The position numbers and the translations under genes are program-made. From a virus: a stretch of DNA of 24,355 nucleotides. Under the pieces are notes generated by a model that made no database searches, was not told where the DNA came from, and was given only the letters and a program-made list of their open reading frames with translations. Shown here in pieces: positions 357 through 20,000 of the stretch. Location of the stretch: positions 1 to 24,355 of the IMG/VR virus record IMGVR_UViG_3300020165_000150, one strand, 5' to 3'. Numbering within the stretch: position 1 is the stretch's first letter; each line of letters begins with the position of its first letter.

Positions 357-1910
357 ATGGATGCAATAGTTAAGAATCTAAACTTCGGTGAGAAGGCTAG
401 AAAAAACGTCTATGAAGGTATAGATAAGCTAACTAGAGCTGTTAGCTCTACTTTAGGCGCTAGTGGTAAATGCGTGATGCTTGAAGATCATACAGGTAAA
501 CCTATTATAACAAAAGATGGTGTTACTGTAGCGGAATCAGTTATATTGAGAGATCCAGTTGAGAATATGGGAGCTACGCTTTTAAAAGAGGCAGCTCGTA
601 AAACCGTAAAAGAAGCTGGTGACGGGACTACAACCGCTACCGTATTAGCTCACGCTATATTGACAGAGGCTTACAAAGTACTAGATAAAACAAACACTAG
701 AAGCTTAAAAGAAGGTATTGATAAATCTGTAGAATCTGTTGTGGAATACTTAAAGAATAAATCTGTACAAGTTACAGATGATATGCTAGATCAAGTAGCT
801 ACAATATCTACAAATAACGATCCTGAATTAGGTAAAATAATTGGTGATGCTTTTAGATTAGTCGATTTAACAGGTGTTGTTGTTATGGAGCCAACAGAGG
901 ACAATGAAACCTCGGTCGAGTTAGTTGAAGGTGTTGAGTATGATAAAGGACTTGTCAACTCTCATTTTGTTACTAGTAAAACCAAAAGAGCGGCAGAGCT
1001 TGACAATGCTTTAGTATTGATAGTAGAATCACCAGTTGAGTCTATAAGAAAAATACAAAGCGTTTTAGAGTATGTTATAAAGAATAATAAATCTCTATTG
1101 ATAATAGCTGATTGTGAGCAGAGCGTTATTTCTGCTTTGGCTATGAACAAAGTTAAAGGTAATATAAAAGTAAATGTTATCAATGCGCCTACATATGGTG
1201 TTAGTAAAAAAGATACCTTAAATGACTTAGCTCTTCTTACAGGAGCTACGGTGATAAATGAAGATCTTGGAGATGATATGGACCTTATACAACCAGAATA
1301 TCTAGGAAGTTGCTTAAAAAGCATTACAACAGATCTAGAGACTATAATACAAGTAGAGGATAATAACCCAGATGTAGAAAAGTTAGTTAAAGATTTAAGA
1401 GATCAAATAGAAACTACCAAAAACCCAAATGAAGTTATAAGACTAGAAAGAAGGCTTGGTAGAATATCAGCTAAAGTAGCTATAGTAAAAGTTGGTGCAA
1501 ACTCTGAAATAGAATTAAAAGAAAAACAAGACAGAGTTGAAGACGCTATTTGTGCTACCAAAGCGGCTGTAAAAGAAGGTATTGTATCTGGTGGTGGTAT
1601 TGCACTTTTAAATGCTTCGAGCAAAATAAAAGCAGATACCATAGGAGAACAAGTATTACTAAGGGCTATAAAAGCACCGTTTAATATAATATTGAGTAAC
1701 GCTGGTATTGAGGAGTATAAGAAACCTAAGAAAGAGGGAGAGGGTTTAGATGTTGTTACAGGTAAAACAGTTAATATGATAGGTTCTGGTATTATAGATC
1801 CTTTATTAGTAACTAAAAGTGCATTAAGGAATGCAGCATCTGTTGCATCAACAATATTATCTACTGATTGTGTAATTAATAATTTAAGGATTGATGATAG
1901 CAATAGGTAG
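357..1910 (+). CDS. groEL: Phage-encoded GroEL-like chaperonin (Hsp60)
   Basis: ATP-driven folding chamber subunit, 517 residues against 548 in E. coli. The equatorial ATP site is present: TKDGVTVA (52-59), GDGTTTATVLA (88-98), the VEDA motif with the catalytic-type Asp396 (E. coli D398), SGGGIAL (411-417), and IIDPLLVTKSALRNAASVAS near the C-terminus. Oddities: the near-invariant TLGPKG loop reads TLGASG; the stretch after NAG(450) is shortened; and the Gly-Gly-Met tail is missing, the protein ending RIDDSNR. In the apical substrate/GroES groove, hand alignment puts Leu, His and Gln where E. coli has Y199, Y203 and L234, while F204 and L237 are kept. ATG 357 follows an A/T-only leader (AATTAAATAAACT) with no Shine-Dalgarno. 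ATA-rich codons match the phage genes around it, so it is not a fresh host acquisition. GroES follows with a 17-base overlap. Identity is firm; activity is inferred. Confidence 0.96.
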   Translation: MDAIVKNLNFGEKARKNVYEGIDKLTRAVSSTLGASGKCVMLEDHTGKPIITKDGVTVAESVILRDPVENMGATLLKEAARKTVKEAGDGTTTATVLAHAILTEAYKVLDKTNTRSLKEGIDKSVESVVEYLKNKSVQVTDDMLDQVATISTNNDPELGKIIGDAFRLVDLTGVVVMEPTEDNETSVELVEGVEYDKGLVNSHFVTSKTKRAAELDNALVLIVESPVESIRKIQSVLEYVIKNNKSLLIIADCEQSVISALAMNKVKGNIKVNVINAPTYGVSKKDTLNDLALLTGATVINEDLGDDMDLIQPEYLGSCLKSITTDLETIIQVEDNNPDVEKLVKDLRDQIETTKNPNEVIRLERRLGRISAKVAIVKVGANSEIELKEKQDRVEDAICATKAAVKEGIVSGGGIALLNASSKIKADTIGEQVLLRAIKAPFNIILSNAGIEEYKKPKKEGEGLDVVTGKTVNMIGSGIIDPLLVTKSALRNAASVASTILSTDCVINNLRIDDSNR

Positions 1911-2154
1911 AAATTTAATAATAAATAAACATAAAGTAGGTACTGCTAAAACAAAAGGTGGTTTACTACTTGCTGAATCTCAAAGAGAGGATATACGATA
2001 TATACAAGCTGACGTTGTAAGTGCTGGTAATGAGGTTGAAGGTATTAAAGCTGGAGATCAGGTATACTACGATAAACACGCTGGACACGGTATAGAACAT
2101 AATGGTGAAAAATATCATGTTATAAGATTTCAAGATGTAGTTGTTGTTTTATGA
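1894..2154 (+). CDS. groES: Phage-encoded GroES-like co-chaperonin (Cpn10)
   Basis: Lid protein of the GroEL chamber, 86 residues against 97 in E. coli. The N-terminal strand is IAIGRNLII. The mobile loop carries KGGLLL (21-26), whose Leu triplet sits where E. coli has the GroEL-contacting Ile-Val-Leu. Then come VVSAGNEVEGIKAGDQVYYD (41-60), equivalent to the 'VKVGDIVIFND' strand, and a final RFQDVVVVL like 'SESDILAIV'. The ATG at 1894 is chosen over an in-frame TTG at 1891 because ATG is the normal start here. It begins inside groEL, whose stop is at 1908-1910, implying translational coupling. Order is groEL then groES, the reverse of the usual bacterial groES-groEL. The 3' end overlaps the next gene by ATGA. 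Confidence 0.92.
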   Translation: MIAIGRNLIINKHKVGTAKTKGGLLLAESQREDIRYIQADVVSAGNEVEGIKAGDQVYYDKHAGHGIEHNGEKYHVIRFQDVVVVL

Positions 2155-2594
2155 AAAGGCTAGAAGCAAGGGACATAAAAGATATGAACTTGTTGAAACA
2201 CTATCGAATAATAAGACGGTGGGCTTGCAGAAACAACAACCTTAATGATGCTGATTTAGAGCTATTAATATATCTTGATTGTATGGACCTATTTTCGAAG
2301 CACGACTTTGAAATGGGTGTATACTCTTATAGTTGGGATAACAGGCGCTGGAACAGGCTTTTAAAAGAGGGTTGGATAACAGTTTGGCGCCATAGAAACA
2401 GGAAAGATATAAAATATAGTATATACAAGGTGTCTTTTAAGTGTAAGCAACTTATAAATAGAATATACAAAGTAATGCTAGGTGAAGAAGATATACCGAC
2501 AGGTAAATCAAATAGTATTATAACAGGGGAAACTTACACTGATAAAGTGTTAAGAACATCAATAAGAAACATTAATAGAGATAAAAATAGATAA
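2151..2594 (+). CDS. Putative winged-helix (MarR-like) DNA-binding protein
   Basis: 147 residues, basic. The core LKHYRIIRRWACRNN / LNDADLELLIYLDCMDLFSK / SWDNRRWNRLLKEGWITVWR has the helix-helix-helix-wing layout of MarR-like winged helices: a helix with 'L...DLELL.YL', a recognition-type helix 'WDNRRWNRLLKEGWI', then a wing 'TVWRHRNRKDIKYSIYKVS'. Residues 100-147 are a basic tail. Its ATG overlaps the groES stop (ATGA), so it is the third gene of the chaperonin operon. Related marine phages carry similar small winged-helix proteins near their structural genes, where they could be late regulators or packaging-related DNA binders. The fold is a pattern-based inference; the role is unknown. 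Confidence 0.6.
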   Translation: MKRLEARDIKDMNLLKHYRIIRRWACRNNNLNDADLELLIYLDCMDLFSKHDFEMGVYSYSWDNRRWNRLLKEGWITVWRHRNRKDIKYSIYKVSFKCKQLINRIYKVMLGEEDIPTGKSNSIITGETYTDKVLRTSIRNINRDKNR

Positions 2595-5354: not shown

Positions 5355-5615
5355 ATGGGAAAATTAACAGATGAACAATTAAAGTCAGTAAAAGAAGGGC
5401 AAGGTAAAATCAACTCTATACTAGTTGAGATCGGTTTTTTAGAAGCTAAAAAAGCAGAGTTTCTAGGAGCACACTTCGAAGCTGTAAAAGCATTAGAAGA
5501 AGTTAAGTCAGAATTAAAAGAAGAGTATGGTGATATCACCGTAAACTTAGCTGATGGATCTTTTGAAAAAGTAGAAGCAGCGGAAGAAACAAAAACTCTA
5601 GAAATAGCGGAGTAA
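5355..5615 (+). CDS. Small coiled-coil conserved phage protein
   Basis: 86 residues, mostly one amphipathic helix (LTDEQLKSVKEGQGKINSIL, then EIGFLEAKKAEFLGAHFEAV, then KALEEVKSELKEEYG) followed by a short strand GDITVNLADGSF and an acidic tail. Proteins of this shape, ending in 'EYG...ININ..G', are common in marine phages without an assigned function. The leader AATTAAATTAAATAAA (54-base gap upstream, in which I see no clear terminator or promoter) is a strong example of the A/T-only start context. The stop overlaps the next start (TAATG). Confidence 0.75.
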   Translation: MGKLTDEQLKSVKEGQGKINSILVEIGFLEAKKAEFLGAHFEAVKALEEVKSELKEEYGDITVNLADGSFEKVEAAEETKTLEIAE

Positions 5616-5842
5616 TGAGCTCTATTATAAGAAAAATAAGCATAGGTTCAGATTACAAAAATGACGCAATGCATTATTCTGTTGGTCAAGAAGTTTATGG
5701 AGGGCATAAAATAGCCTATATAACTTTAAACGACAAAGACAACTCTTATAATATACATATAAAGAAAAACAATGAGGTATTGCCATGGAAAAAGTTTAAT
5801 TCTAACATGGCAATATCCATTGAATATGATCTTCAGTATTGA
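5615..5842 (+). CDS. Small conserved phage protein
   Basis: 75 residues. SSIIRKISIGSDYKNDAMHY and the ending LPWKKFNSNMAISIEYDLQY match, from memory, a family widespread in marine phage genomes ('KISIG.DYK..AMHY..GQ.V', then 'FN.NMP.SIEY'). The composition looks all-beta, with no membrane segment. Function unknown. It is coupled at both ends by one-base overlaps (TAATG at 5615 and TGATG at 5842), so it is probably made in step with the GroES-like gene that follows. Confidence 0.75.
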   Translation: MSSIIRKISIGSDYKNDAMHYSVGQEVYGGHKIAYITLNDKDNSYNIHIKKNNEVLPWKKFNSNMAISIEYDLQY

Positions 5843-6447
5843 TGAGAAGTGTATATGACTTTATTGTAGAACCAGTAGGAGAAAGATACGACAACGAGTT
5901 AAAAGTATGTGATAAAAAATTAGTTTTAAATTCTAAAATAGAAAGTCACAAGTTTATAAACAACAAAGCCAAAGTGATATCTGTGCCAATAGCCTTTAAA
6001 ACCCCTATAAGAGTAGGTGATGAAGTTATTATTCACCACAATGTATTTAGAAGATACTATAACCAGAAAGGTAAAGAGGTAAACAGTAGTAAATACTTTA
6101 AAGATAATAGGTACTTCTGTCAATTAGATCAGATATACCTATACGGTAAAGATGACTCGTGGAAACCTTTTAACAATAGATGCTTTGTAGCACCTATAAT
6201 TAATAAGGACGATCTAGAGCTAAAGAAAGAGAAAAACCATATTGGAATACTTAAATATGGTAATAGTTTCTTAGAAGCTCTTAAAATAAACAAAGGAGAT
6301 GTTATAGGCTTTACACCTAACAGCGAATTTGAATTTGTCGTTAACGATGAATTATTATATTGTATGAAATCAAAAGATATTGTAATTAAGTATGAGCACG
6401 AAAAAAACCAAGCTCAGTATAATCCAAGCTGGGCAAAGAGCAGTTGA
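5842..6447 (+). CDS. Tandem GroES-like (Cpn10-like) phage protein
   Basis: 201 residues from ATG 5842; an in-frame TTG at 5839 is rejected. The protein reads as two GroES-like halves. First half: SVYDFIVEPV, then AKVISVP, TPIRVGDEVIIHHNVF (54-69) and YFCQLDQIYLYG. Second half: KPFNNRCFVAPI (108-119), then IGILKYGN, LKINKGDVIGFTPNSEFEF (147-165) and YCMKSKDIVIKYE (173-185). These line up with the E. coli GroES elements PLHDRVIVKR, GEVLAVGNG, VKVGDIVIFNDGYG and LIMSESDILAIV. Homologous proteins are frequent in marine phages, usually unannotated. It could be a double-domain co-chaperonin, like chloroplast Cpn20, or a GroES fold reused in the virion. No obvious GGIVL-type mobile loop is visible. 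The gene is certain; the fold is my inference from aligned patterns. Confidence 0.72.
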   Translation: MRSVYDFIVEPVGERYDNELKVCDKKLVLNSKIESHKFINNKAKVISVPIAFKTPIRVGDEVIIHHNVFRRYYNQKGKEVNSSKYFKDNRYFCQLDQIYLYGKDDSWKPFNNRCFVAPIINKDDLELKKEKNHIGILKYGNSFLEALKINKGDVIGFTPNSEFEFVVNDELLYCMKSKDIVIKYEHEKNQAQYNPSWAKSS

Positions 6448-6661
6448 GGAATTAATAAAGGTAGCTAAAGAACCTATAGTAGATTCAGGTGATGATATAA
6501 CTGCTGATAGATTAAAGAATGCTGCTGCTACAAAGAAGCTAGCCATATTTGACGCTTTTGAAATACTAACTCGTATTGAAGAAGAAAAAAGTATGATAAA
6601 TGAAAGTGGTAATACTAAAGAAAAATCTTTTAAAGGTTTTGCAGAAGGAAGATCTAAGTGA
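6392..6661 (+). CDS. Conserved small protein upstream of terminase (small-terminase candidate)
   Basis: 89 residues, helical. KLSIIQAGQRAVEELIKVAK, then DDITADRLKNAAATKKLAIF and DAFEILTRIEEEKSM, ending KGFAEGRSK. This pattern ('ITADR.KNAAATKKLA.FDAF.I..RI', '...GFAE.RSK') is one I recall directly ahead of terL in many marine phages. Position and helical character make it a candidate small terminase subunit or packaging factor, but it lacks a clear helix-turn-helix. It begins 56 bases inside the preceding gene and its TGA overlaps the terL ATG by one base (TGATG), so expression is coupled to TerL. Confidence 0.8.
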   Translation: MSTKKTKLSIIQAGQRAVEELIKVAKEPIVDSGDDITADRLKNAAATKKLAIFDAFEILTRIEEEKSMINESGNTKEKSFKGFAEGRSK

Positions 6662-8886
6662 TGTACGAACAAACATTAGTAAAGACTCTCGACAATTATA
6701 TAAAGCCGGGTATTATAAAGAAAAATAACAGATACAAGAAGTGGAGTTATGGTTATGATCCTGAACATGATATAGTCATTATCAGCAGAGATGGTACTCT
6801 AGGTGAAGTTATACAGATACAAAACTTAGTTATAGGATTACCTTTGGAACCCGAAAAGGTATATAAACGTTCTAATAAAAAGCAAGAGCAAAAGTGGGAG
6901 AAATTAGATTATCCTAAAGAGCTTTTAAAAATAAAAAGCGTATTTGATTGGGATAAATACCCTAATGCGTTTAAAGAAAAATGGTATGATTATATTGATG
7001 AAGAGTTTAAGAGAAGGGAGCAAGGTTTTTGGTTTAAAAACAATGGTAATAGCAATTATATTACTGGTACTCACTATATGTTCTTGCAGTGGTCCAAGAT
7101 TGATGTTGGGGCAGCAGACTATAGGGAATCAAATAGATTATTCTTTATCTTCTGGGAAGCTTGTAAAGCGGATATACGGTGTTACGGAATGTGCTATCTT
7201 AAGAACAGACGGTCAGGTTTCTCTTTCATGGCGTCAAGCGAGACAGTTAACCTTGCTACAATATCCACAGATTCAAGATTTGGCATTTTATCAAAGTCAG
7301 GACAAGACGCTAAAAAGATGTTTACTGATAAGGTCGTCCCCATCTCAGTTAATTATCCCTTCTTCTTCAAACCAATCCAGGACGGTATGGACAGGCCAAA
7401 GACAGAACTCGCGTATAGGGTACCAGCGTCGAAACTTACAAGAAAAAAACTCGACGAGGGTATTGCATCAGAGGAGAAGCAGGGTCTCGACACAACAATC
7501 GACTGGAAGAACACCGGGGACAACTCGTATGATGGTGAAAAACTAAAGATACTAGTACACGATGAAAGTGGTAAATGGGAAAGACCTGACAACATACTAA
7601 ACAACTGGAGAGTTACAAAAACATGTTTACGTTTAGGTAAAAAAATAGTGGGTAAGTGTATGATGGGTTCGACATCAAACGCTTTAGACAAAGGTGGTGC
7701 TAATTTTAAAAAATTATATTATGCTTCAGACGTCAGGGAGAGAAACCGCAACGGACAGACTAGCTCAGGACTATATAGTTTGTTCATACCTATGGAATGG
7801 AATTACGAAGGATTCATCGACGCTTATGGAGTACCTGTATTCGATACGCCAAGTGAAAAGGTTATCGATCCAACAGGTGAATTAATACTTACAGGAGTAA
7901 TAGAGCATTGGGAAAATGAAGTTGATGGTTTAAAAAATGATCAAGACGGATTAAATGAATATTATCGTCAGTTTCCAAGAACTGAAAAACACGCTTTTAG
8001 AGACGAAGCTAAATTATCTTTATATAACTTAACTAAAATATACGAACAAATAGATTACAATGAAGAAGTTAAAAATAAAAGCTTAGTTACAAGAGGTAGT
8101 TTTCAATGGAGAGGTGATGTAAAAGATACGGTTGTAGAGTTTAAACCAAACAATAACGGTAGATTTTATGTGTCTTGGATTCCATCTATGAATTTACAAA
8201 ACAATGTTATTGTAAAGAATGGTCTTAAATATCCTGGTAGTGAGCATATAGGTGCTTTTGGATGTGATAGCTACGATATATCAGGTACAGTTGATAAAAG
8301 AGGTTCCAACGGATCTTTACACGGTTTAACTAAGTTCAATATGGATAACGCTCCATCTAACATGTTTTTTCTTGAGTATATAGCTAGGCCACAAACTGCT
8401 GAAATATTTTTTGAAGACGTGCTCATGGCTTTGCATTTCTATGGTATGCCAATACTAGCGGAGAATAACAAACCAAGACTGTTATATTATTTAAGAAGAA
8501 GAGGTTATAGAAACTTCTCAATAAATAGACCTGACAAAGCGTACAATAAATTATCAGTAACTGAAAAAGAAATTGGTGGTATACCAAATTCAAGCGAGGA
8601 TATAAAACAAGCTCACGCAGCTTCTATTGAAACATACATAGAAGATCACGTTGGTTATACTGGCGAAGGTTATGGTCAAATGTATTTTCAAAGAACACTA
8701 GAAGACTGGGCAAGATTCAATATAAACAATAGAACAAAGCATGATGCTACAATAAGTTCTGGACTCGCAGCTATGGCTTGTAATAAAAATAAATATTCAC
8801 CGGTTTATAAAGTTCAAAAAAATAAAGTACAACTATCATTTAACCGATATGATAACAATGGAAGTATTTCAAAAATAATAAAATAA
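6661..8886 (+). CDS. terL: Terminase large subunit (packaging ATPase/nuclease)
   Basis: 741 residues from ATG 6661; an in-frame GTG at 6658 is rejected. It pumps DNA into the prohead and cuts it. The ATPase has a deviant Walker A, LKNRRSGFSFMASSE (180-194), of the 'KxRRxGxS' type seen in crAss-like phages; Walker B LKILVHDE (295-302); and coupling motif GSTSN (336-340). The RuvC-like nuclease has GCDSYDIS (534-541), Glu601 in ILAENNKPRLL, and Asp695 in KHDATISSG, giving likely metal ligands Asp536, Glu601 and Asp695. A roughly 170-residue N-terminal extension makes it longer than typical TerL (about 450-600). A high-GC block with different codon use covers residues about 170-295, between the Walker motifs. 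The portal start follows the stop with no gap. Confidence 0.95.
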   Translation: MYEQTLVKTLDNYIKPGIIKKNNRYKKWSYGYDPEHDIVIISRDGTLGEVIQIQNLVIGLPLEPEKVYKRSNKKQEQKWEKLDYPKELLKIKSVFDWDKYPNAFKEKWYDYIDEEFKRREQGFWFKNNGNSNYITGTHYMFLQWSKIDVGAADYRESNRLFFIFWEACKADIRCYGMCYLKNRRSGFSFMASSETVNLATISTDSRFGILSKSGQDAKKMFTDKVVPISVNYPFFFKPIQDGMDRPKTELAYRVPASKLTRKKLDEGIASEEKQGLDTTIDWKNTGDNSYDGEKLKILVHDESGKWERPDNILNNWRVTKTCLRLGKKIVGKCMMGSTSNALDKGGANFKKLYYASDVRERNRNGQTSSGLYSLFIPMEWNYEGFIDAYGVPVFDTPSEKVIDPTGELILTGVIEHWENEVDGLKNDQDGLNEYYRQFPRTEKHAFRDEAKLSLYNLTKIYEQIDYNEEVKNKSLVTRGSFQWRGDVKDTVVEFKPNNNGRFYVSWIPSMNLQNNVIVKNGLKYPGSEHIGAFGCDSYDISGTVDKRGSNGSLHGLTKFNMDNAPSNMFFLEYIARPQTAEIFFEDVLMALHFYGMPILAENNKPRLLYYLRRRGYRNFSINRPDKAYNKLSVTEKEIGGIPNSSEDIKQAHAASIETYIEDHVGYTGEGYGQMYFQRTLEDWARFNINNRTKHDATISSGLAAMACNKNKYSPVYKVQKNKVQLSFNRYDNNGSISKIIK
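7170..7545 (+). other. High-GC, codon-shifted patch inside terL
   Basis: Within terL, bases about 7170-7545 use C/G-ending codons (ATC, CTC, GTC, CCC, TTC, GAC, AAG, ACC) that are rare in the flanks. By hand count, 7381-7500 is 59/120 G+C (49%), against 18/60 (30%) at 8521-8580. The reading frame and protein motifs continue unbroken. A second, weaker island of similar codons lies near 7730-7770. The likely explanation is allelic replacement from another phage. Confidence 0.7.
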
Positions 8887-11307
8887 ATGATTTATACTAA
8901 CACAAACAGTTCTTTCCCTAGTCAGGTAGTACCAGACTCAGAAAAGCAAAGCTTAGAATATGGCTATGCTGTAGGTAGAGCTATTGAAGACGAATGGTTT
9001 AAAGGTGATAGAGGAACTAATATTGGCGGTAGATTTGCAAGTAATTGGCAATACTTTCACAAGTTAAGACTTTATGCTAGAGGAGAGCAGTCTGTTCAAA
9101 AGTACAAAGATGAGTTATCTATAAATGGTGACTTAAGTTACTTAAACCTAGACTGGAAACCTGTAGCTGTATTATCTAAGTTTGTTGACATCGTTGTTAA
9201 CGGTATGACAGATAAGGGTTATGAAATAAAATCATTTGCATCAGATCCGTTTGCTGTAAAAGAAAGAACACAACACGCTACTGATTTAGCTGAAGATGCT
9301 TTTTCACAAAACATAATACAAGAAGCACAACAAAACTTTGGTATAGATTTAAGTAGAACTAATGTACCAGCTGATCAATTACCAAAAAGTAAAGAAGAAC
9401 TAGAACTGCACATGCAGTTGACATATAAACAAGCTATAGAAATAGCTGAAGAAGAACTTATAAATAACGTATTAGATTATAATAAGTACGAGGAGGTTAA
9501 AAAAAGAGTGGCTTATGATTTAGTCGTACTTGGTGTTGGTGCTAGTAAAACTGATTTTAATTTAGCTAACGGGGTTACTGTTGATTATGTAGATCCAGTT
9601 AATTTAGTACACTCTTACACTGAAGATCCAAACTTTGAAGATATATACTACGTAGGCGAAGTAAAAAGTGTACCATTAGAAGAGGTTAAAAAGCAATTTT
9701 CACACCTTACAGATAAAGATCTTATAGAGATACAGCAATATCCTGGCGACTCAAACTATACCAGAAACTTCAATGGTCAAGACAGTAGTTATGATAACGT
9801 TCAGGTTCTTTATTTTGAATACAAGACTTATAGTAATCAAGTATTTAAAATAAAACAAACAGATCAAGGGTTAGAAAAGGCTCTAGAAAAAGATGACAGT
9901 TTTAACCCGCCAGAGAGTGATAATTTTAATAGAGTTAGTAGGTCTATAGAGGTATTATATAGTGGTGCTAAAATACTAGGTTATGACAAAATGCTTAAAT
10001 GGGAACTAGCAGAAAATATGACCAGACCTTTTAGTGATCAGACTAGGGTTAATATGAACTACACTATATCTGCTCCTAGAATGTACAAAGGTAGAGTTGA
10101 GAGTATAGTTAGTAAGACTATTGGTTTTGCTGATATGATACAGTTAACTCACTTGAAAATACAACAAGTGCTAGCGCGTATGGTACCAGATGGTGTTTTT
10201 GTTGATGTTGATGGATTGGCTGAGGTTGATCTTGGTAACGGAACAAACTACAATCCGCAAGAAGCTCTTAATATGTATTTTCAAACTGGTAGTATAGTTG
10301 GTAGATCACTAACACAAGATGGTGACCCTAATAGAGCTAAAGTACCTATACAAGAATTACAAACATCGTCAGGTATGAGCAAAATACAAGCGCTTATACA
10401 GACTTATCAGTATTACTTACAAATGATAAGAGATGTAACAGGACTTAATGAAGCTAGAGACGGTAGTCAACCAGCAAAAGATTCTTTAGTTGGTTTACAA
10501 AAACTAGCAGCGGCTGCTTCAAATACAGCGACTAAACATATACTTCAGTCATTAATGTATATCACTGTTAGAATATGTGAAAATATAAGTCTAAGAGCAG
10601 CTGATATGTTAAACTTCCCTTTAACTAAAAACGCTTTAATGAATTCAATAAGTAGCTTCAACGTGAATACGCTTGAGCAGATTGAGAAACTAAATATGCA
10701 CGAGTTTGGTATATTCTTAGATTTAGAGCCTGATGAAGAGGAGAAGCAAATACTAGAGAGAAACATACAAATAGCATTGCAGTCTGGAGGTATTGATCTT
10801 GAAGACGTTATAGATTTAAGGCAGATATCCAATATCAAGTTAGCTAATCAAATGCTTAAAATAAAACGTAAGCAAAAAATGGAAGCTGACAAGCAGGCGC
10901 AGATGCAAAACATACAAGCGCAAGCGCAGGCAAATGCTGAGTCCGCTGAAAAAGCCGCTATGTCTGAAGTGCAGAAGCAACAAGCGTTAGCTCAAACAAC
11001 TCTTCAAATAGAACAAGGCAAATCTCAGTTTGAAATGCAACGCATGCAGGCTGAAGCTCAAATTAAGAAAGAGCTTATGGCAGAAGAGTTTAATTATAAT
11101 ATTCAGTTAGCTAAAGCAAGGGCTGATGCTGAAAAAGTAAAAGAAAAAGATATAGAAGATCGTAAAGACGAAAGAACTAGAATACAAGCTACACAGCAGT
11201 CAGAGCTTATAGCACAACGTCAGAACGATGAACTACCTAAGAATTTTGAGTCGTCAGGTTTTGACTCACTAGGCGGATTTGGATTAGAACAATTCGACCC
11301 TAGATAA
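8887..11307 (+). CDS. Portal protein
   Basis: 806 residues; it forms the ring through which DNA enters and leaves the head. Portal-type features: N-terminal wing FASNWQYFHKLRLYARGEQS, then LDWKPVAVLSKFVDIVVNGM, as in crAss-like and related podoviral portals; a clip/stem region with VKKRVAYDLVVLGVGASKTD and NGVTVDYVDPVNLVHSYT; and a late helical region QALIQTYQYYLQMIRDVTGL followed by NEARDGSQPAKDSLVGLQKL. The C-terminal ~150 residues (about 650-790) are a long Ala/Gln/Lys-rich coiled coil, which may form a barrel. ATG 8887 directly follows the terL stop. Length and order (terL-portal-scaffold-capsid) fit. Confidence 0.92.
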   Translation: MIYTNTNSSFPSQVVPDSEKQSLEYGYAVGRAIEDEWFKGDRGTNIGGRFASNWQYFHKLRLYARGEQSVQKYKDELSINGDLSYLNLDWKPVAVLSKFVDIVVNGMTDKGYEIKSFASDPFAVKERTQHATDLAEDAFSQNIIQEAQQNFGIDLSRTNVPADQLPKSKEELELHMQLTYKQAIEIAEEELINNVLDYNKYEEVKKRVAYDLVVLGVGASKTDFNLANGVTVDYVDPVNLVHSYTEDPNFEDIYYVGEVKSVPLEEVKKQFSHLTDKDLIEIQQYPGDSNYTRNFNGQDSSYDNVQVLYFEYKTYSNQVFKIKQTDQGLEKALEKDDSFNPPESDNFNRVSRSIEVLYSGAKILGYDKMLKWELAENMTRPFSDQTRVNMNYTISAPRMYKGRVESIVSKTIGFADMIQLTHLKIQQVLARMVPDGVFVDVDGLAEVDLGNGTNYNPQEALNMYFQTGSIVGRSLTQDGDPNRAKVPIQELQTSSGMSKIQALIQTYQYYLQMIRDVTGLNEARDGSQPAKDSLVGLQKLAAAASNTATKHILQSLMYITVRICENISLRAADMLNFPLTKNALMNSISSFNVNTLEQIEKLNMHEFGIFLDLEPDEEEKQILERNIQIALQSGGIDLEDVIDLRQISNIKLANQMLKIKRKQKMEADKQAQMQNIQAQAQANAESAEKAAMSEVQKQQALAQTTLQIEQGKSQFEMQRMQAEAQIKKELMAEEFNYNIQLAKARADAEKVKEKDIEDRKDERTRIQATQQSELIAQRQNDELPKNFESSGFDSLGGFGLEQFDPR

Positions 11308-12549: not shown

Positions 12550-14010
12550 ATGGCTTTAACTCCAACATTTGGTTCATTGAAACCATCTCAAAAACAAGAA
12601 ATTTTAGATAGCAATTATCTAAAGTTTAACGACGGCGCTGGCGCTGGCGACACTGATACTTTTGCACAACAATACTTACCAGAGATCTACGAACAAGAAG
12701 TAGAGCGTTATGGAAACAGAACTTTATCTGGATTCTTAAGAATGGTAGGTGCTGAAATGCCAATGAGTTCTGATCAAGTAATTTGGTCTGAGCAAAATAG
12801 ATTACATATTTCTTATGAAGCATGTACTAACGACCAAGTAAATACAATCACAATTCCAGTTGCTTTAAATCCAGCTGACCCTAAAGACTACGTTGCAAAC
12901 GTTGTGTCTCCAGGAGCTACTATTGTAGCAATGGATGCTACAGGTGCTGAATTAAAAGCTGTTGTAACTGCTTCTAACTTAACTACAGGTGCTTTGACAG
13001 TAGCTCCTTATACTGCTGTAAATACAGCTTCTTTAGCTACTACAGGTGTTAAGATATTTGTATTTGGATCTGAATATGGAAAAGGTTCAACTACTCCTAA
13101 CTCTACCGTGACTGCAGGTGCTGCTGACGGATATGTATCTATTGATCCTTCTTTTACACAATTCTCTAACTCACCAATCATCATCAGAAATAAATACGTT
13201 GTAAACGGATCTGATATGGCTCAAATCGGTTGGGTAGAAGTTGCTACTGAAGACGGAACATCTGGGTATTTATGGTACTTAAAAGCTGAATCTGAAACAA
13301 GATTACGTTTTGAAGACTACTTAGAAATGTCTGTTGTTGAAGGTGAAAAAGCTAGTGTTGCAGGTGCTGGAGGAGCTGCTGCTGCTGGTTATAAAGGTAC
13401 TCAAGGTTTATTTGCTGCTGTTGAAGACAGAGGTAATGTAAACGTAGGGTTTACAGCTGCTAACGGATTAGGTCAGTTTGATGAAATCCTTAAGAACTTA
13501 GATACTCAAGGAGCTATTGAAGAAAACATGTTATTCTTACAAAGACAAACTTCTTTGGATTTTGACGATATGTTAGCTGATTTATCTGCTGGAGCACAAG
13601 GTGGAACTGCTTATGGTTTATTTGAAAACTCTGAGGAGATGGCATTAAACTTAGGTTTCTCTGGATTCAGAAGAGGTTCTTATGACTTCTACAAAACTGA
13701 CTGGAAATACCTAAACGATGCTTCTACTCGTGGAGCTATAACTGGAGTATCTTCTATCGAAGGTGTATTAGTACCAGCTGGAACTTCTACAGTTTACGAT
13801 CAAATATTAGGTACTAACATTAGACGTCCTTTCTTACACGTAAGATATAGAGCTTCTCAAGCAAATGACAGAAGAATGAAGCAATGGGTAACTGGTTCTG
13901 CCGGTGGCGCTGCTACATCTGATCTAGATGCTATGGAAGTAAACTTCTTATCTGAAAGATGTTTATGTGTACAAGGTGCTAACAACTTTGTATTATTCAA
14001 AGGTGTGTAA
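12550..14010 (+). CDS. Major capsid protein
   Basis: 486 residues, presumed HK97 fold. Typical N-terminal helix: FNDGAGAGDTDTFAQQYLPE, then IYEQEVERYGNRTLSGFLRM. Later segments include EDYLEMSVVEGEKASVAG, GLGQFDEILKNLDTQGAIEE, and a C-terminal EVNFLSERCLCVQGANNFVL. Codon choice is unlike its neighbours: only 3 of 19 Ile codons are ATA (GroES has 8 of 9), with many GCT, TCT, AAC and TAC codons, as expected for the most abundant virion protein. The leader AAAAATTAAACAAAA precedes ATG 12550. A GC-rich hairpin lies directly downstream. Position after the scaffold and the high-expression codon use support the call; I did not identify the fold by a specific signature. Confidence 0.9.
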   Translation: MALTPTFGSLKPSQKQEILDSNYLKFNDGAGAGDTDTFAQQYLPEIYEQEVERYGNRTLSGFLRMVGAEMPMSSDQVIWSEQNRLHISYEACTNDQVNTITIPVALNPADPKDYVANVVSPGATIVAMDATGAELKAVVTASNLTTGALTVAPYTAVNTASLATTGVKIFVFGSEYGKGSTTPNSTVTAGAADGYVSIDPSFTQFSNSPIIIRNKYVVNGSDMAQIGWVEVATEDGTSGYLWYLKAESETRLRFEDYLEMSVVEGEKASVAGAGGAAAAGYKGTQGLFAAVEDRGNVNVGFTAANGLGQFDEILKNLDTQGAIEENMLFLQRQTSLDFDDMLADLSAGAQGGTAYGLFENSEEMALNLGFSGFRRGSYDFYKTDWKYLNDASTRGAITGVSSIEGVLVPAGTSTVYDQILGTNIRRPFLHVRYRASQANDRRMKQWVTGSAGGAATSDLDAMEVNFLSERCLCVQGANNFVLFKGV

Positions 14011-17016: not shown

Positions 17017-20000
17017 ATGGCTGAAGTTAAAAACGCTTTTATCAAGTCTAAAATGAATAAAGACTTGGACTCTAGACTTATACCTAATGGTGAGTATAGA
17101 GATGCTAAAAACATACAGGTCAGTAGATCTCAAGGTGATGATGTTGGTGCGCTGGAAAACATACTCGGTAATGCTGTCACTGTGAATGGTGATTTCGCTT
17201 CTCATTCAGGTGTCTCTGATATTGAATGTATAGGTTATGTTATAGATCAGTCAAATAATTTTGTTTATTTGTTTTTTACAAACTACACTGATCCTTACTC
17301 TGGAGATGTTTCAACATATAGTACAACCGCACAAAACTTTATATACGCATACAATACACTTACTAATGAAAGAATAAAGTTGTTAGAAGGTGCTTTTCTA
17401 AATTTCTCTACAAATAGACCTATAATAGGTGTAAACTTGCTAGAGAATTTATTATTCTGGACGGATAATAGAAATCAACCTAGAAAAATAAATACAAGCA
17501 TAGCCAATAGTAATGGTGTTTCATATTATAATACTGAAGATAAAATATCAGTAGCTAAATATAATCCATATAAATCACCTGAAATCATAAAAGAAACCTC
17601 ACCGGGTTCTGGAGTTTATGAAACCACTATGTATAATGTTTCTAATGAATTTCTACCTGTTGAAGCAATTGCATTCGTAAATGGTGCAGTGACAAATTCA
17701 ACTACTTTTAATATTGATAACAGAAAAGGAGCTATCAGCGTCGGTAATTTTGTTACAGGTGATGGAGTGACTGCAGGAACAACTGTTTTAAGTTATGATA
17801 TAAACAATGCAACACTGGAAGTTAGCTCAGCTCAAACACTTGATGATAATACTAAATTAAGCTTTCAACAGCAAAACCCATATTATAATGCTAATTTTTC
17901 TGGTGATCCGCAATACTTAGAAGATAAGTTTGTTAGATTTAGTTATAGATTTAAATTTATCGATGGCGAGTACTCTATAATAGCTCCATTTACTCAAGCT
18001 GCTTTTATACCAAAACAAGACGGGTATTTTTTAGAAGGAGATGAACAACAAGCGGTATCAAGTACTGTTGTTGAATTCATGGAGAATAAAGTAGATAAAA
18101 TAGATTTACAAATACCACTACCTGCAAGTTCAGATAACCTGCAAAATAACTACTTAATAACAGACATAGATATTATATACAAAGAGTCTGACTCTAATGT
18201 TGTTCAAGTAGTTGAAACAATACCAGTGTCTAGTATTACAGGCGATGTAGATACTTACGTTTATTCTTATGTTTCACAAAAACCTTACAAGACTTTACCT
18301 GGAGATGAGATTATTAGAGTATACGATAAAGTACCTGTAAAAGCTTCAGGTCAAGAAATAGCTAGTAATAGGGTTATTTATAGTAATTTCCAAAACAAGC
18401 ACACTCCACCTAATTTTATAGATTATCAAGTAGCTGTTAGCGATAAATTATTAGATAATATAGATGGTTCGGCAAAATCTAGAGTTGAATACCCAAATCA
18501 TAATGTAAAAGAAAATAGAAATTATCAAGTAGGTGTTGTGTTAGCTGACAAGTTTGGTAGGCAATCTACAGTTATACTTTCAAACAATATAAGTGATTTA
18601 AGTGGTGGTTTTGGCGCTGACACTGTCTACTTACCATACAATTCAATTAATAACTCTATAGATTTCCCTGGAAACTCTATTAAAGCACAATTCAATACAG
18701 TGCTTAGCGGTGTTGGTATAGATAAAGATGAAGTAAGTGGTATACCTGGTTTATACAATAGCGACCCAACTAGCTCAGAATATAATCCATTAGGCTGGTA
18801 TTCTTACAAGATAGTTATAAAACAAAACGAACAAGAGTACTATAATGTATATGCTCCTGGTGCGATGAAAGGAAACCCATATTATATAGCTCCTTCTTCA
18901 GATTTAAATCCAGAAAATCAAAACGCTTCATTTATAACATTAATAAATGATAATATAAATAAAATACCTAGAGACTTAACAGAGGTTGGGCCTCAAGATA
19001 AACAATTTAGAAGTTCTGTTAGACTTTTCGGTAGAGTTGATGTTGGTGATATAATATGGGGTCCGGGAACTAATCCAAGAAAAAATAAACAATATTTTCC
19101 AGGTAGAAGATCTTTTACAACAAATACTATAGAGGACTTATTCGACTTATTTGATGTTGCAGATTTTGATGCCACTGGTCAAGCGCCTCCAATTACGAAC
19201 AATAACAATCCTTACTATTCTTTTTTAAGATCTGAGTCAAATCCTTTTATAGCGGAGATAATAACATCTCAAGATCCTGATAACCAGTTTGGTATAATAA
19301 ACAACGATTATACAAATGGCCGTGTTTATGAAAAGTTTGATACATTAACTATATTAGAAACAAAACCAACAACCTCTAGATTAGATATATATTGGGAAAC
19401 ATCTACATCCGGTTTGTTGTCAGACTTAAATGAAGCTATTGGCGCAGGTGCTCAAGCTTCTCAAATATCTGGCTGGGTTTATGATCATACAGAAGCTATG
19501 TCGCCTGGTGAAGACATAACAGGTAACTTTGAGTTTCAAGATGTTTTAGGTGTTTCATTTACAAGTATACACGATGTTACAATGACTGTGACAAATAGTG
19601 CTGGGGAAGATGTTACTTCTAAATTTAATTTAATTAGAAATACACCACCCGCCGATAATAATTCTTTTAAAATAGAAACAGCTGCTGGTGAGTATTTTTA
19701 TTATGACACAAATAGTCTTAAAAATATTTTTAATTTTGTGTTTTCAGTTACAGTTAACAGTGGCGACTCGTCGAGTAACGTTTCTAAACCCAACCAACCA
19801 TTAACAAACGTAGCACCTACGATAACTAACGATGCAACCGACACTATATTAGTGTTTGAAGGAGTAAGAAATATACCTCTAGCAAACGGTACACCTACTG
19901 GTAAAGCGACAGGTTTGAACGGTTCAAATATAAGTGGTGGTAAATCAACGGATAACTTAATATTCTCAATAGGTACACAGTCTGGTGTTGGTAACTTTGA

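Follow-up and report, generated by a model that had tools for sequence, protein, structure and literature searches.

A GroEL, a single-domain GroES and a tandem GroES-like protein in one tailed-phage lineage: a probable virus-dedicated chaperonin system

Does a phage that encodes GroEL and GroES side by side maintain a chaperonin system for its own virion proteins? The question was raised by a 24,355-base IMG/VR fragment of tailed-phage origin (IMGVR_UViG_3300020165_000150), the whole of which is referred to here as the window. By its large terminase subunit (6658–8886; phrog_6681), used as lineage marker, the window is related to the elemo phages, Callevirus, Maribacter phage Panino and MW202828. 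The terminase gene precedes those for the portal protein (8887–11307; phrog_6547, Pfam P22_portal) and for a virion structural protein (12550–14010; phrog_13704), probably the major capsid protein, as the Calle_1 gene at the equivalent place is annotated. All three genes are on the plus strand.

The groEL-groES operon and its origin

The first chaperonin gene (357–1910, plus strand) encodes a protein of 517 residues that was matched by Pfam Cpn60 over residues 25–508 (E = 1.5e-57) and by the PHROG family groEL (E = 1e-132). With a Cpn60_TCP1 score of 195.9 bits (cut-off 34.3) and all three domains present, it is a full-length group I chaperonin. The adjacent groES gene (1894–2154, plus strand) begins at the ATG at 1894, downstream of the TTG at 1891 given by the ORF lister, and its product of 86 residues scored 46.7 bits with Pfam Cpn10 (cut-off 21.1). 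The protein carries a mobile loop with the motif GGLLL, and its AlphaFold2 model (pLDDT 87.8) displays a GroES-type fold matching GroES/Cpn10 and T4 gp31. In an alignment with host GroES proteins and gp31, the GN-to-GD stretch, corresponding to the roof hairpin, comprised 11 residues in the window GroES compared to 15–20 in hosts and E. coli and 13 in gp31. The window GroES is roofless as is gp31, whose missing roof has been linked with a more open cage for folding of the capsid protein gp23 (PMC6318259).

The two genes overlap by 17 bases (1894–1910, plus strand), as was observed in 73 of 81 IMG/VR loci, the window included. In all 81 viral loci groEL is followed by groES, whereas groES came first in 31 of 32 cellular reference loci. 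An intact GroEL and GroES in exactly this arrangement had been claimed in the original prediction, which was borne out by the reading frames and the Pfam and PHROG matches. That inventory had overlooked two further genes, a tandem co-chaperonin gene at 5842–6447 (see below) and a third gene of the operon (2151–2594, plus strand; phrog_17028). The latter, adjacent to groES in 81 of 81 loci, encodes 147 residues and begins inside the groES stop codon, the two genes sharing the four bases ATGA in 80 of 81 loci. It matched no Pfam family, the match to PadR being weak (E = 0.09), and homologues are located near groEL/groES in elemo, MW202828 (deposited as repressor protein) and Panino. Judged by eye, the product looks like a winged-helix DNA-binding protein and is a possible regulator of the chaperonin operon.

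Residues of GroEL were compared by aligning 84 viral proteins with 31 from hosts, using the E. coli numbering. K51, D52, D87, G88, T89–T91, S151, N153, D398, G414, G416 and D495 were invariant in all 84 viral GroELs; among them are the ATP-binding and catalytic residues D52, D87, T89–T91 and D398, by which group I membership was assessed. The ATPase motifs, originally described as intact, are so with respect to these catalytic and contact residues, but not throughout the site: G415 is Gly in 82 of 84 viral GroELs, adenine-side N479/A480/A481 also drift, and P33, the sole host-invariant ATP-site residue that is always replaced, is A in all 84. ATP-site positions were nevertheless spared from loss compared to the rest of the protein (p = 4e-4). 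The viral clade has lost 111 of 291 host-conserved positions altogether; at 69 of these, another largely fixed residue is found instead.

Replacements at most client sites are likewise fixed and not drifting. Five client and lid contacts, Y199, Y203, L234, V263 and V264 in 31 of 31 hosts, are occupied by L/I199, H/N203, Q234, A263 (83 of 84) and M264 in the viral clade; the client/lid face of GroEL is rebuilt clade-wide. The L, H and Q at Y199, Y203 and L234 that had already been read from the window sequence, together with TLGASG in place of TLGPKG, the lack of a Gly-Gly-Met tail and the GGLLL loop, proved correct in alignment to E. coli GroEL. The alignment and the tree described below support the view that the phage encodes a GroEL/GroES pair that looks functional and has a remodelled apical face. 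The proposal that client and lid preference is altered agrees with the fixed substitutions, but loss at client contacts (8 of 14, compared to 37% protein-wide) was not significantly enriched (p = 0.16), and we therefore word it conditionally: preference may have shifted. Ring-ring contacts are poorly kept, with R452 and A109 absent from the common viral residues and 467–469 deleted. Since this erosion was not significantly greater than the background (p = 0.37), a single-ring state of the viral GroEL is kept as a possibility. A seven-membered ring acting with a GroES-type co-chaperonin is predicted for the window GroEL, groES being co-encoded in 81 of 81 loci. One contig, IMGVR_UViG_3300046167_000476, has an intact GroES and tandem gene, but its GroEL frame (17709–19160) is split into three pieces with one stop, reflecting either decay of the gene or an error in sequencing.

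With respect to its origin, the window GroEL is 42% identical to the best Bacteroidota host GroEL and 40% identical to that of E. coli. Maximum-likelihood analysis placed the GroELs of the lineage in one clade (support 100/99) outside all host GroELs; the placement of long-branched phage GroELs in the resulting tree is unsure. A recent host copy or a contig chimera, against which a phylogeny had been suggested as a check, is ruled out by the separate clade and the host identity of at most 42%. Three other contigs encode relatives with 94–97% identity, and on each of them groES again follows groEL. The nearest kin of the clade are contigs binned in metagenome-assembled genomes (MAGs). The MAGs holding contigs with viral-type GroELs bear names such as Aliivibrio, Euryarchaeota, Rickettsiales and Desulfobacteraceae, and such GroELs could mislead chaperonin-based taxonomy.

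Close relatives of the window GroEL occur on at least 593 IMG/VR contigs, and 287 public phage records, including some bacterial contigs deposited under phage, had a GroEL-like match. Existing annotations of elemo, immuto, Callevirus, phi38:1 and MW202828 phages already include groEL and groES pairs. These numbers refute the assumption that viral GroELs, and phages with both partners, are rare, and the title of Marine et al. 2017, as cited in PMC7185714, likewise calls viral chaperonins prevalent in virioplankton.

A tandem GroES-like protein encoded upstream of the terminase

Directly upstream of the large terminase gene, the window encodes a protein of 201 residues (5842–6447, plus strand; the ORF was listed from a TTG at 5839). 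The PHROG family phrog_13932 (co-chaperonin GroES) matched this protein along its length (E = 1e-23), and Pfam Cpn10 on the whole protein reached 12.9 bits, below the cut-off of 21.1. In the AlphaFold2 model (pLDDT 88.7, pTM 0.82) the protein consists of two GroES-like domains. Foldseek comparison to the PDB returned as top matches the chloroplast co-chaperonins Cpn20 and Cpn23 of 7ekq, aligned over about 207–214 columns with modest TM-scores of 0.50–0.55; the further matches, down to rank 33, were exclusively GroES/Cpn10. Among the viral predictions in BFVD, the fold matched phage proteins of about 185–200 residues, including cpn10 of Cellulophaga phage phi18:3. A search of the PDB with the sequence profile of the tandem protein returned nothing useful, and Cpn20 was found by fold comparison alone.

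Using broad alignments, domain 2 was clearly related to GroES by hhalign (probability 97, E = 5e-11), while domain 1 gave a weak probability of 37 that was still above 20 column shuffles. With narrow alignments, comparison of the tandem protein to GroES gave a probability of 28, and the two domains displayed no recognisable likeness to each other by profile comparison. Two head-to-tail GroES domains are thus indicated over the full length by fold prediction, with profile support for domain 2 and, weakly, for domain 1; because of this weak sequence support, domain 1 is assigned to GroES on its predicted fold. The loop of domain 1 is 33 residues long and contains a conserved hydrophobic tripeptide (LVL in the window; motif L-I/V-L/V-N). 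In domain 2 the loop comprises 18 residues in 45 of 50 rows of the window clade, compared to about 28 in viral GroES, and 28–29 in just two rows; long domain-2 loops occurred in Calle_1 and phi19:3. A mobile loop is present in one domain of the window protein and not in each. As domain 2 is without a full mobile loop, we file the tandem protein as Cpn20-like in architecture and not as a member of Cpn20.

Two observations were made beside the tandem gene and in other phages. The 75-residue ORF directly before it (5615–5842) matched an archaeal Argonaute N-domain model below the cut-off (E = 3e-4), probably by chance. In crAss-like phages with GroEL, ORFs near the terminase had weak GroES HMM matches in phi14:2 (L169, 2264–2653; E = 0.05) and cr108_1 (L173, 5899–6378; E = 0.003) and are possibly unannotated co-chaperonins; S0A2F3, a phi14:2 protein of 129 residues, was also matched by fold to the tandem protein.

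Linkage and co-inheritance of the chaperonin genes

Wherever the locus left room, the tandem gene was located directly upstream of the terminase gene, both in loci fetched by GroEL (51 of 51) and in those fetched by the capsid gene (29 of 29). Both GroES and the tandem gene were present in each of the 68 viral GroEL loci extending as far as the terminase. Twenty records were searched whole, and 18 of them encode GroEL, the tandem protein and GroES together. Tenacibaculum Gundel_1 has none of the three, and Cellulophaga phi19:3 has the tandem protein (L301, 7085–7687) and a single GroES (L304, 3117–3371), both annotated as GroES in RefSeq, without GroEL. A single GroES was therefore present in 19 of 19 whole-searched records with the tandem protein. 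Nearly the same tandem protein as in phi19:3 is found in phi13:2, phi18:3 and phi46:3, which seem to be without GroEL as well, since Calle, phi38:1, phi40:1 and phi14:2 together make up all nine Cellulophaga GroEL records.

Protein distances of GroEL, GroES, the tandem protein and the terminase were correlated (r 0.79–0.90; 0 of 999 permutations reached these values), the pattern that vertical co-inheritance of the chaperonin genes with the terminase would produce. Among 15 extra contigs, GroEL and GroES were both missing from seven, and none had one without the other. Truncation likely explains the missing genes, since the tandem gene was near the contig end wherever its position was checked. 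On the contig of one GroEL-GroES relative (L184), neither a tandem gene nor a terminase was recognised.

Proposed function of the two lids and relation to known systems

Taken together, the locus is probably best explained by a vertically inherited group I chaperonin system dedicated to the virus and serving its virion proteins. The phage would supply an ATP-driven GroEL ring of its own, whose client/lid face is rebuilt and which would be capped by its own co-chaperonins, namely the roofless single-domain GroES and the tandem GroES-like protein. The tandem protein is encoded just before the terminase, portal and capsid genes, and the chaperonin genes would be inherited vertically within the virion-morphogenesis programme. 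Late in infection the system would fold virion proteins, foremost the major capsid protein, and the product of 12550–14010 is the presumed main client. Because the hosts have a chaperonin of their own (GroEL was present in 40 of 41 Bacteroidota genomes), we infer rather than observe that the phage chaperonin is dedicated to the virus. By its fold and its company, the tandem protein would be a working lid that acts with the phage GroEL.

How the two lids might cooperate allows for different arrangements. A mixed asymmetric lid of seven domains on the phage GroEL, composed of three tandem subunits and one single GroES, is a tentative and rather unlikely solution. As each tandem subunit contributes one domain with a loop, such a lid would present four mobile loops, the number reported to be needed for GroEL binding (PMC4242682); mixed chloroplast Cpn10/Cpn20 rings are active (PMC4242682, PMC5780408), and the co-chaperonin chains of 7ekq, one Cpn11, two Cpn20 and one Cpn23, likewise add up to seven domains. 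Alternatively, GroES and the tandem protein may form separate oligomers, the former for general clients and the latter for one large client in a swap as with gp31, which we regard as possible but on the whole doubtful. The separate location of the two lid genes, the function of Cpn20 homo-oligomers with seven-fold GroEL in vitro (PMC5780408) and the precedent of T4 gp31 (PMC6318259) are in line with this arrangement, but an even number of domains mismatches a seven-fold ring, and the constant company of a single GroES in the 19 whole-searched records is what a shared lid predicts.

A small terminase or a head factor is often encoded just before the large terminase. The tandem protein might accordingly be a packaging or head-assembly protein reusing the GroES barrel, with GroEL and GroES alone forming the chaperonin. 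Its gene is always directly upstream of the terminase and not beside groEL, the protein occurs in phi19:3 without GroEL, and its domain 2 loop is short. We nevertheless consider this role unlikely, as the homology of domain 2 to GroES is clear, the long domain 1 loop keeps its conserved hydrophobic tripeptide, the best fold matches are tandem co-chaperonins, and in phi19:3 the co-chaperonins go together even in a phage without GroEL. Most improbable appears an ordinary accessory set, host-derived groEL and groES genes that boost folding capacity and whose drifted residues have no meaning. Viral GroELs are indeed common, and losses at ring-ring and client contacts are not significantly above the background, but the reversed gene order, the fixation of most client-site substitutions, the separate clade of the GroELs and the presence of a second lid protein argue against it.

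The virus-dedicated system resembles several known ones in part. Flavobacterium elemo and immuto, Cellulophaga Callevirus/phi38:1 and MW202828, mostly phages of Bacteroidota, likewise encode GroEL and a single-domain GroES; the window GroEL is 34–41% identical to theirs and belongs to its own clade. In elemo, Calle and MW202828 the tandem protein adjoins the terminase as in the window, while in immuto and Calle groES comes before groEL, unlike in the window. The chloroplast proteins of 7ekq (Cpn11, Cpn20 and Cpn23) combine two head-to-tail GroES domains with a single-domain partner as does the phage set, but Cpn20/Cpn23 and the tandem protein are only 12–13% identical with no plastid link, and domain 2 in the window clade is without a full-length loop. 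T4 gp31 is, like the window GroES, a phage-encoded lid of GroES fold without roof loops and is tied to capsid protein folding (PMC6318259); however, it is a single-domain homo-heptamer that acts with the host GroEL, whereas the window phage encodes a GroEL itself, together with two lids. In this respect phi19:3, with both lids but no GroEL, more closely resembles T4. Pseudomonas phages EL and OBP also encode GroEL homologues. No interaction with E. coli GroES was seen for the EL chaperonin, which was proposed to work without encapsulation (PMC7185714); the window GroEL, 24% identical to an EL-like GroEL, is encoded together with a GroES. For Vibrio K364, phiKT1024 and the EL-like phage, no GroES was found within the stretches read.

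GroEL/GroES pairs in phages are already known; the new element is the tandem lid and its combination with a single GroES. A review called the tandem type of co-chaperonin chloroplast-specific (PMC5780408), and cpn10 is listed among the core genes of Pervagoviridae (PMC8776804); our literature search, thin on subscription journals and hence weak evidence of novelty, found no report of a phage tandem lid or of this pairing. How even domain numbers fit a seven-fold ring is a standing question for the chloroplast tandem co-chaperonins. It could be approached in a simple bacterial model, namely a common marine phage lineage with both lids and a GroEL, with the phi19:3 group as natural comparison. 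A mixed lid, if true, would be the viral equivalent of the Cpn11/20/23 ring of chloroplasts and possibly older than the phage GroEL, since phi19:3 has both lids without a GroEL and would use that of its host. The lineage suggests that these phages may keep a private folding machine for their virion proteins instead of borrowing that of the host.
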